Origin: an uncultured Gallionellaceae bacterium
GTDB taxonomy: Bacteria; Pseudomonadota; Gammaproteobacteria; Burkholderiales; Gallionellaceae
Length of the DNA: 64,000 bases
NCBI GenBank assembly: GCA_903847155.1
Contig: CAINCU010000014.1
Coordinates: forward strand, 62,001 to 126,000
Direction: 5' to 3'
Within the stretch, counting starts at the first letter, position 1. Each line of letters opens with the position of its first letter. The notes under the pieces were generated by a model. The model did no database searches. It was not told the DNA's origin and was given only the letters and a program-made list of their open reading frames with translations. Shown here one piece after another: positions 37,141-42,604 of this stretch. The position numbers and the translations under genes are program-made.

Positions 37141-37643
37141 AGCGGACATTGGCGAATTCACACAATCGCCCCCTTGCAGGTGAAAAACGGTAGCTTCCGG
37201 CAGGATCTTTACTTCCGGCTCAATACATTTCCGGTCGAGTTGCCAGCCTTGCGGGTGCGATTGTCCGACATCCAGCTGCTGGCGAAATCCCTCTTGTCTC
37301 ATGTTGCAGCGGATCGGAATCTAGTTATTTCCGACGATGCCATCGGTTTGCTGCGCCGCTACGACTATCCAGGCAATGTGCGTGAGTTGCGAATATCATT
37401 GAGCGTGCCTGCCTGTTATGCGATGGCGGAACGATCCAGCCTATGCATCTGCCCGAGGAGGTTCGCAACGGTCACGAGATGCGAACAACCAGCACTGGTA
37501 AACCGGCAAGTTTGGAAGAACAAGATCGCCAAACTCTAGAAACTCGGCTTGCGCATCATCGCGGCAGTCGGAAAAAATTGGCGGCTGAGCTCGGTATTAG
37601 CGAAAGAACGCTTTATCATAAACTCAAACAGCTTGAAGAATAG
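37141..37643 (+). pseudogene. Remnant of a sigma54-dependent activator (bEBP): C-terminal AAA+ part plus Fis-type HTH, frameshifted
   Basis: VKNGSFRQDLYFRLNTFPVELPALRVRLSDIQLLAKSLL...YDYPGNVREL | frameshift | GGTIQPMHLPEEV...KKLAAELGISERTLYHKLKQLEE. Confidence 0.9.
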
Positions 37644-37650
37644 AGCGTTC

Positions 37651-37684
37651 TGCCAACATGGCGCATACTCTGCCACTTCTGGCA
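37651..37684. promoter_or_regulatory. Two phased palindromes, candidate enhancer (UAS)
   Basis: TGCCAacaTGGC (37651-37662) and TGCCActtcTGGCA (37671-37684), centres 21 bp apart. Confidence 0.6.
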
Positions 37685-37786
37685 GAGAAGCTAACTTCTT
37701 TCGTCAACACCGACCTGTGACATTTCGCCGCAAGCGACTCTGGAAACGACAACGGACTTAAGCTGTTACGTTTTTAACTCCAGGCA

Positions 37787-37802
37787 TGGCATAAGCCTTG
37801 CA
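37787..37802 (+). promoter_or_regulatory. Sigma54 -24/-12 promoter
   Basis: TGGCATAAGCCTTGCA (GG-N10-GC). Confidence 0.8.
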
Positions 37803-37933
37803 TTGCATAACGCTTGGAAGCGGCGTAGTCTTTGCTACCAGAAACAGTCAGGGTGCGCTCCTCTCGCAAACAGTACTTGCCCGCTGCTTCAACGCTCGTC
37901 GCTTCCTCCCAACTAAATAGTCAGGAGATTTTC

Positions 37934-38329
37934 ATGCGTATAGCAGTCACCAGCCAGAATTATCGTGCTGTCACCGGCCACGCCGGAAAGGCGCGCCGTT
38001 TCATCGTATTTGAAGCCACTGTTCAAGATCAGCCACGGGAAATTGAGCGATTCGATCTTGATGCCAACATGGCCATCCACGGCTTCGATCATCGCGCCGG
38101 CCACCCCCTCGACAGCGTGAACGTACTAATAACCGGCGGAGCCGGTGAAGGCTTTATCCGCCACTTGGCTGCACGCGACGTATTGGTGGTTGCAACTGAA
38201 GAGAGCGATCCCTGCATGGCGGTGGAAGCGTTTATCGCAGGCCGTGTGAAATCGGCCAGCGAAGGTTGCAATCACGACCATAGCAATCTCGGCGACGAAC
38301 AAGGTCACACATGCAGCTGCCACGGCTGA
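37934..38329 (+). CDS. NifX/NafY-like dinitrogenase Fe-Mo cofactor-binding family protein
   Basis: MRIAVTSQNYRAVTGHAGKARRFIVFEA...VLITGGAGEGFIRHLAARDVLVVATEESDPCMAVEAFIAG. Confidence 0.85.
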   Translation: MRIAVTSQNYRAVTGHAGKARRFIVFEATVQDQPREIERFDLDANMAIHGFDHRAGHPLDSVNVLITGGAGEGFIRHLAARDVLVVATEESDPCMAVEAFIAGRVKSASEGCNHDHSNLGDEQGHTCSCHG

Positions 38330-38544
38330 AACGCAACGCTGGCGGCGCGAGAAAGACGCTACGCCGCGAGATCACCATTGCCTTGGCGATCAAACTGCTG
38401 GTGCTCTATGGCCTTTGGTATGTCTTCTTCAGCCATCCGTCGATTCACGGCATGACTGAGGGCATGGATCCCGATCGCGTAGCCGCCGCCCTCATCGCCC
38501 CGCCGCCAATAAACACAATTGAACGTCATGAGGAGAAACACTGA
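38311..38544 (+). CDS. cydP: Cytochrome bd oxidase small subunit CydP
   Basis: [26 protein letters not shown] directly before cydA. Confidence 0.85.
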
Positions 38545-41699: not shown

Positions 41700-41737
41700 A
41701 TTGGTTAGATCGTAATTGGTCTAACCAATTTTTTTGA
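41700..41737. terminator. Hairpin terminator between cyd operon and integrase remnant
   Basis: ATTGGTTAGA-tcgtaa-TTGGTCTAACCAAT + T-run. Confidence 0.75.
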
Positions 41738-42045
41738 TGGGGACTTTTGGGTGACTTTTCTCACCAAGCTGTTCTCGCCGAATCATTGCAAGACTGCGAT
41801 TCACTCGACGGCCTTTGTCTGTGGTGTGATTTAACGCCCCCACTAGCTCATCAATCTGTACTACTGAGTAATGAGCCATCATACCTTGGCGCCGTGAGCC
41901 ACAAAATGTCAGCAATCGTTTCTTCATGTGCTTCAGTCTCCCGTAATCGCATTCCCACCGTATGACGCAGATCGTGAATGTGAAGGTCTGGAATTCCGGC
42001 CTTCTTTCTCGCCCGTTGCTATGCGCTGTTGTTCATGGTTTCAAT
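41721..42045 (-). pseudogene. Tyrosine recombinase/phage integrase C-terminal remnant with a frameshift
   Basis: Reverse strand: DLHIHDLRHTVGMRLRETEAHEETIADILWLT | frameshift | RRQGMMAHYSVVQIDELVGALNHTTDKG. Confidence 0.85.
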
Positions 42046-42121
42046 CCGGCGCCCTTGGACAGGGGAATACATACTCAATCATCTTTGCCTCTTTGTGTTT
42101 CGATGATGAAGCATTATTCAT

Positions 42122-42137
42122 TGTCACAATCCTTACA
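42122..42137 (+). promoter_or_regulatory. NifA-type upstream activator sequence
   Basis: TGT-CACAATCCTT-ACA (TGT-N10-ACA). Confidence 0.75.
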
Positions 42138-42231
42138 ACACTCTTTGGCCGTCTTGTTCCACACACGCGAGTTGAGCGTGGTGTTTCTACAAGCTTCTAA
42201 TTAAACATCAGCTTGAGTCTGCTATCAGGGC

Positions 42232-42247
42232 TGGCATGCAGTTTGCA
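42232..42247 (+). promoter_or_regulatory. Sigma54 -24/-12 promoter of the nif-iscA operon
   Basis: TGGCATGCAGTTTGCA (GG-N10-GC). Confidence 0.85.
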
Positions 42248-42283: not shown

Positions 42284-42604
42284 ATGATCATCATGACACT
42301 CAACGCGATCTCCGCCGTGGAGAAATTTATCAAAGGAGTAGACACGCCTGCCGAGCTGCGCATCGCAATTGCAAGCGGCGGCTATTTCGGCTTCCAGTAC
42401 GGCATGTCTCTGGAGGAAGTGAAGAACGATGACAGCATCGTGCTGAAATACAGTGCAGTGACCTTGCTTGTCAATCCTTTGTTCGCTCCGCTACCGGAAG
42501 GCGTCTCCGTCGATTTCGTCGACAGACTCACCGGCAGTGGCTTTAAATTCGAAAACTCGAACGCTAGCTCCAGCTGTGCGTGCGGTTTATCTTTCTCAGC
42601 ATAA
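42284..42604 (+). CDS. Nif-associated IscA/HesB Fe-S protein
   Basis: [21 protein letters not shown]...[13 protein letters not shown], upstream of nifU. Confidence 0.92.

Follow-up and report, generated by a model that had tools for sequence, protein, structure and literature searches.

Predicted FisR-type operators and a conserved sigma54 promoter precede a NafY-like and bd oxidase operon in Gallionellaceae

Introduction

Which activator controls the bd oxidase operon that lies between sodB and a nif cluster in an uncultured Gallionellaceae bacterium? The window analysed here comprises 64,000 nucleotides of its genome (GenBank assembly GCA_903847155.1, contig CAINCU010000014.1, positions 62,001 to 126,000). 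An earlier note on this DNA described a paired palindrome and a -24/-12 promoter ahead of the operon, and proposed an activator other than NifA, of unknown kind, with a role in nitrogenase protection or in the response to NO or low oxygen. We conclude that a FisR-type activator very probably uses the two palindromes as its operators, and thereby places the NafY-bd oxidase operon under sigma54 control (probability about 0.82). Comparison of sequences establishes the predicted sites, the promoter, the activator family, its linkage to the operon and the remnant of the activator gene in the window.

Results

Architecture of the control region and operon

The control region contains the following elements.

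37651..37663, no strand: UAS 1, predicted FisR-type operator, TGCCA-ACA-TGGCG (TGCCAACATGGC(G), of which TGCCAACATGGC is 37651-37662)
37671..37684, no strand: UAS 2, predicted FisR-type operator, TGCCA-CTTC-TGGCA (TGCCACTTCTGGCA)
37716..37736, no strand: third conserved inverted repeat, downstream of the boxes and ahead of the promoter; the best copies read TGCGGCA-TTT-TGCCGCA, and the copy in the window is degraded
37787..37802, plus strand: -24/-12 sigma54 promoter TGGCATAAGCCTTGCA, GG at 37788-37789 and GC at 37800-37801 (GG-N10-GC)

The palindromes and the promoter are located as described before, except that the centres of UAS 1 and UAS 2 are 20.5 bp apart, not 21. From these centres to the -24 GG the distance is 131 bp (UAS 1) and 110 bp (UAS 2), in agreement with the earlier estimate of about 110-130 bp. 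The promoter is near-perfect, scoring 14.35 of 14.5 against TGGCAC-N5-TTGC with GG-N10-GC, and transcription is expected to start near 37812. Two matches to the sigma54 pattern occur in the window (0.48 expected), the other, at 42232, belonging to nif; a search of 37640-37940 gave no sigma70-like promoter. One palindrome alone is unremarkable because the window has eight single TGCCA-N3/4-TGGC sites versus 2.6 expected, but the spaced pair occurs once in the window and in none of 100 shuffles. In a whole-genome scan the strict TGCCA-N3-TGGCA gives 13 sites versus 5 for the reversed pattern, too common for a regulon to be called from single boxes. Paired, helically phased and conserved inverted repeats some 100-150 bp upstream (20-21 bp apart in the relatives) have the geometry of a bEBP enhancer, and the UAS reading of the earlier note holds for a pair that is unique in the window and conserved in relatives. 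A conserved AACG..CTTAAG..GTTAC-TTTTT block at 37753-37776 may serve the activator gene as a weak terminator.

Downstream lie the genes of the operon, all on the plus strand.

37934..38329, plus strand: NifX/NafY-like gene (Nitro_FeMo-Co), 131 aa; PF02579, 22.7 bits, weak, below the cut-off of 26.3
38311..38544, plus strand: cydP; NF045611, 58.9 bits
38544..40115, plus strand: cydA; PF01654, 584.7 bits
40126..41265, plus strand: cydB; TIGR00203, 508.5 bits
41286..41372, plus strand: candidate cydX, 28 aa (MWYFTWMLGLAMAILFAVVNALWHEFHE), identified by eye

The profile matches agree with the genes that had been named, the NifX/NafY-like assignment being weak here (the protein of one relative reaches 28.9 bits with PF02579). 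CydX had also been claimed; the 28-aa frame can be read but it matches no family. CydA and CydB are intact and form the only bd oxidase of the genome, which has this cydA as its sole cydA match. A second NafY-like gene (76%; G000:C49:29201-29614, L041, L121) adjoins an octaheme cytochrome operon, and no such sigma54 promoter or control region was found upstream of this paralogue (L041).

Conservation in Gallionellaceae

Across the family comparison set of 159 genomes the palindrome-pair pattern is present in 13, with a single match for the reversed control pattern; nine matches (the window genome counted) are upstream of a NafY-cyd operon and one precedes an octaheme-cytochrome operon. Conservation of the TGCCA-N3-4-TGGCA pair and of the -24/-12 element before the cyd operons of relatives had been suggested as a check, and both elements are kept in nine Gallionellaceae relatives. 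Over ten aligned sequences the mean column identity is 0.93 for the promoter and 0.83 and 0.88 for the palindromes, versus 0.62-0.64 for the neighbouring spacers. Between the activator and NafY-like genes the alignment consists of conserved islands separated by variable spacers, the islands being the two boxes, the third repeat, the promoter and the greater part of the leader. The UAS 2 spacer is 4 in the window and 3 in all nine relatives. In another genome of the set (L118:3560-5572, G085) an operon for an octaheme cytochrome of the tetrathionate-reductase family has tandem FisR-type boxes and a perfect -24/-12 ahead of it.

A broken activator gene adjoins the palindromes

Directly upstream of the palindromes, and overlooked in the earlier note, is the end of an activator gene.

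37174..37643, plus strand: remaining 3' part of a fisR-type gene for a sigma54 activator, covering residues ~280-433 of 433, with the AAA+ lid and Fis-type HTH

The remnant matches PF25601 and PF02954 and carries one -1 frameshift (a one-base deletion) near 37392; tblastn with the activators of L050 and L055 accordingly gives matches at 37180-37392 and 37392-37640 in two frames. It has no PAS domain, Walker A or GAFTGA motif, so this activator gene is not intact, and a protein lacking Walker A and GAFTGA cannot work. The relatives (MAGs of Sideroxydans, Gallionella and other Gallionellaceae) carry an activator gene at exactly this place, complete in most and ending at the contig edge in L054 and L056.

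The relatives' activators combine PAS_4, Sigma54_activat (with GAFTGA present) and HTH_8, which is the architecture of FisR, and their PAS domain carries the motif CFDISHHFxVPCDQAGETCP. The search with this PAS domain covered the family and 398 genomes sampled from the order, and about 90 loci were taken for study; the linkage survey, seeded from one PAS domain, is not an unbiased census. Cys-x10-Cys-x6-Cys is present in 95 of 95 activators carrying the motif, in a search that already demanded the cysteines, though at looser spacing. Sulfane sulfur gives rise to a Cys53-Cys64 tetrasulfide in Cupriavidus FisR (PMC9495516), and by these published positions the Cys pair of the activators has the same spacing. 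Sensing through these cysteines is not universal, since Acinetobacter baumannii FisR has no such cysteines and is still sulfide-responsive (PMC7315123). No clear solved relative of the PAS domain was found. By domain content and cysteine spacing the activator of the cyd-linked relatives matches the FisR type, a sulfane-sulfur sensor class. The proposal of a non-NifA activator is consistent with the paired enhancer, but an activator of unknown kind is not supported, the linked one matching the FisR type.

The predicted operator pattern accompanies FisR-type genes

In a held-out Burkholderiales set, which leaves out the loci that suggested the operator pattern, exact TGYCA-N3/4-TGRCA occurs upstream of activator genes at 35 sites versus 0.5 in shuffles. 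By spacer the counts are 7 versus 0.2 for N3 and 28 versus 0.3 for N4 (dinucleotide shuffles); spacers of 1, 2, 5, 6 and 7 give 0-2 sites and a spacer of 8 gives 6. A search restricted to spacer 3 missed most sites, which were recovered by allowing spacer 4. Spacer length follows clade: the type that accompanies the window's operon has 3 and most others have 4. In Cupriavidus metallidurans CTGCCAACTTGGCAG lies between pdo and fisR, which connects the box with the FisR/pdo arrangement. The palindrome therefore accompanies FisR-type genes, including one pdo-fisR locus.

For 88 activator loci the sequence extends over 7 kb or more. Of these, 32 have cyd genes in reach; elsewhere the neighbours are NafY-like, octaheme tetrathionate-reductase-family, PDO or TDT-type transporter genes, and about a third (30 of 88) lack every linked gene that was tested. 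At 35 of the 39 linked cyd/NafY loci a strong sigma54 promoter points away from the activator, versus 3.65 expected (mononucleotide shuffles). In L189 and L202 a PDO gene lies behind cydAB on the strand that runs divergently from the activator, several Burkholderiales having PDO in such a cyd cluster, and on a Pseudoalteromonas replicon the activator is divergent from cydP-cydB-cydX-ybgE (as annotated). In the relatives examined the operon lies beside PDO-like, SQR-like and cbb3-oxidase genes. The linkage to pdo and sqr is uneven: pdo is found in several Burkholderiales loci and in C. metallidurans, whereas the closest relatives have only a PDO-like neighbour without the HxHxDH motif and an SQR-like protein far below the curated SQR cut-off. 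The PDO-like MBL-fold protein, divergent from fisR in L051 (2615-3229, minus strand) and relatives, has HxHxDH apparently replaced (LLTGAYPTAGRS) and is possibly a non-catalytic relative of PDO.

A conserved leader between promoter and NafY start

37803..37933, plus strand: conserved leader, whose outer stem pairs 37816-37825 with 37898-37907 in ten sequences

The leader of ~120 nt, from the promoter to the NafY start, is in places as conserved as the promoter, most strongly in the segments CUCCUCUCGC and GUACYUGCCCGC. Its outer 10-bp stem is found in 10 of 10 sequences, the last two pairs failing in a few; one pair changes from C-G to U-A (a double compensatory change) and another occurs as three types. 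The whole structure exceeds slid versions, ten related sequences being few for this comparison, and the fold of the single sequence is not unusually stable (z -0.7). A model of the leader matches once in each of the ten genomes, in no other of the 159 searched and nowhere outside the NafY-cyd operon; no Rfam leader or riboswitch family matches it above gathering score. The leader RNA is probably structured.

Alternative readings of the locus

Two alternatives deny that the palindromes serve a FisR-type activator. Palindrome 2, with an 8-bp perfect stem and a 4-nt loop about 25 bp past the fisR stop, could be a terminator hairpin of the upstream activator gene and no enhancer. We reject this reading, the least credible of all: no T-run follows, a terminator scan does not list it, and the same box recurs ahead of activator genes as well as at divergent promoters, where a terminator would be out of place. 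Control by NifA or another nitrogen or low-oxygen activator, for respiratory protection of nitrogenase, is suggested by the nif genes that start at 42284 in the present genome. The nif operon has its own TGT-N10-ACA box and -24/-12, but no TGT-N10-ACA was seen on reading 37640-37787 ahead of the cyd promoter, as the earlier note had also reported, and this interval has no NifA-type UAS; moreover, the palindromes track the FisR family. Adjacency to nif is specific to this genome and absent from the relatives examined, where the neighbours are the PDO-like, SQR-like and cbb3 genes, and the proposed roles in nitrogenase protection or the NO/low-oxygen response are not borne out. NifA control, very improbable on these grounds, was likewise rejected. 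Upstream of the hesB/nifU/nifS/nifV cluster, 42122-42247 contains the NifA-type box (42122-42137) and the -24/-12 element TGGCATGCAGTTTGCA (42232-42247). A degraded tyrosine-recombinase-like reading (HDLRHT..., by eye) is found at 41720-42060 on the minus strand; lying between cydX and nif, it suggests an insertion or rearrangement. Control by NorR and NO was rejected too: the box has a core like that of the NorR site, yet the activators linked to it are PAS-Cys proteins whose neighbours are in many cases sulfur genes.

The two other alternatives concern the present state of this genome. With fisR broken, the sigma54 promoter may be unused here, the palindromes drifting and cyd expressed otherwise or not at all; such a relic, which is compatible with the FisR reading of the sites, is a serious contender at somewhat less than even odds. 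The activator without Walker A and GAFTGA is in its favour, as are the UAS 2 spacer that went from 3 to 4, the third inverted repeat degraded relative to the relatives, and a genome in which PDO-like was not found and SQR-like has only a 26% relative elsewhere. Against decay, the UAS 2 arms, the -24/-12 element and the leader are intact, as is the genome's only bd oxidase (CydA, CydB), and no sigma70-like promoter that could replace it was found in 37640-37940. It is less probable, though still plausible, that the remaining FisR-family paralogue (G000 contig C58) took over the operon. This paralogue is intact, with the Cys triad and GAFTGA, and has an N4 site of its own upstream (TGCCACAAATGACA); the sites of its family have spacer 4, which the changed UAS 2 matches. 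UAS 1, however, keeps spacer 3, and a one-base insertion in UAS 2 can be drift.

Discussion

The FisR-type reading of the palindromes suggests the following mechanism. Sulfane sulfur (persulfide or polysulfide) would modify the paired cysteines in the PAS domain of an activator that sits on the TGCCA-N3-TGGCA boxes, on one helix face. The bound activator would loop to RNA polymerase-sigma54 at the -24/-12 element and start transcription near 37812, and the product, the NafY-like protein and a complete bd oxidase, would respire while sulfide poisons the haem-copper oxidases. We infer binding, sulfane-sulfur activation and looping from the FisR literature and general knowledge of bEBPs. With only a broken piece of the linked activator gene left, the operon of the present genome would be silent, or driven by the FisR-family paralogue (contig C58) or by another promoter. 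An extended scheme, which we regard as doubtful, is a two-layer control, in which the FisR/sigma54 sulfane-sulfur switch is joined by the structured leader RNA (37803-37933) acting after initiation and the FisR paralogue has replaced the broken activator by way of the operator-spacer change; the leader is previously undescribed in the sense of having no Rfam match and no description found among open-access literature.

The evidence points to sulfide/persulfide-induced, sulfide-resistant respiration as the probable role of the operon, not nitrogenase protection, because sulfide induces bd oxidase, which is itself refractory to it (PMC7315123), and sulfur genes surround the operon. In Cupriavidus necator the wild-type region upstream of cydA2B2 gives a reporter signal 500-1000-fold below that of a point mutant in which a sigma70 promoter is predicted to arise (PMC10164946), and this region might be a FisR/sigma54 promoter.

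The short repeated inverted repeats recall those of another bEBP, NorR, whose UAS, GTCA-N3-TGAC, has a similar core. Here the linked activators differ in having PAS and a Cys triad with no GAF among their Pfam matches, and their targets are cyd, PDO and octaheme genes, not norVW. The NifA UAS (TGT-N10-ACA) is likewise a bEBP enhancer before a -24/-12 promoter but differs in sequence, and a NifA-type box is found here at the separate nif promoter (42122). Closest are the FisR systems of Cupriavidus pinatubonensis JMP134 and A. baumannii (PMC9495516, PMC7315123), where FisR, a sigma54 activator, is sulfide-responsive and drives sqr-pdo (PMC7315123). A regulatory domain with AAA+ and Fis HTH and a sigma54 promoter at the linked operon are shared with both, and the Cys53/Cys64 spacing with Cupriavidus FisR, the C. 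metallidurans pdo-fisR locus having the same palindrome. In contrast to these systems the target here is the NafY-like protein and bd oxidase, the activator is co-directional instead of divergent and it is broken in the present genome; A. baumannii FisR differs further in lacking the cysteines of the relatives' activators. Induction of cydAB by sulfide, to which the oxidase is refractory, is known from E. coli, M. tuberculosis and A. baumannii (PMC7315123), and our operon would resemble these in having a bd oxidase that is raised under sulfide. The A. baumannii paper reports the induction of cydAB and shows FisR control only for the sqr-pdo operon (PMC7315123), and no paper linking FisR directly to cydAB was found among open-access literature. 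With sulfide induction and resistance already known, what the present linkage and sites predict is a direct switch, a FisR-type activator acting through the operator TGYCA-N3/4-TGRCA at cyd operons across Burkholderiales, and the definition of one operator sequence and one activator family makes this prediction testable.
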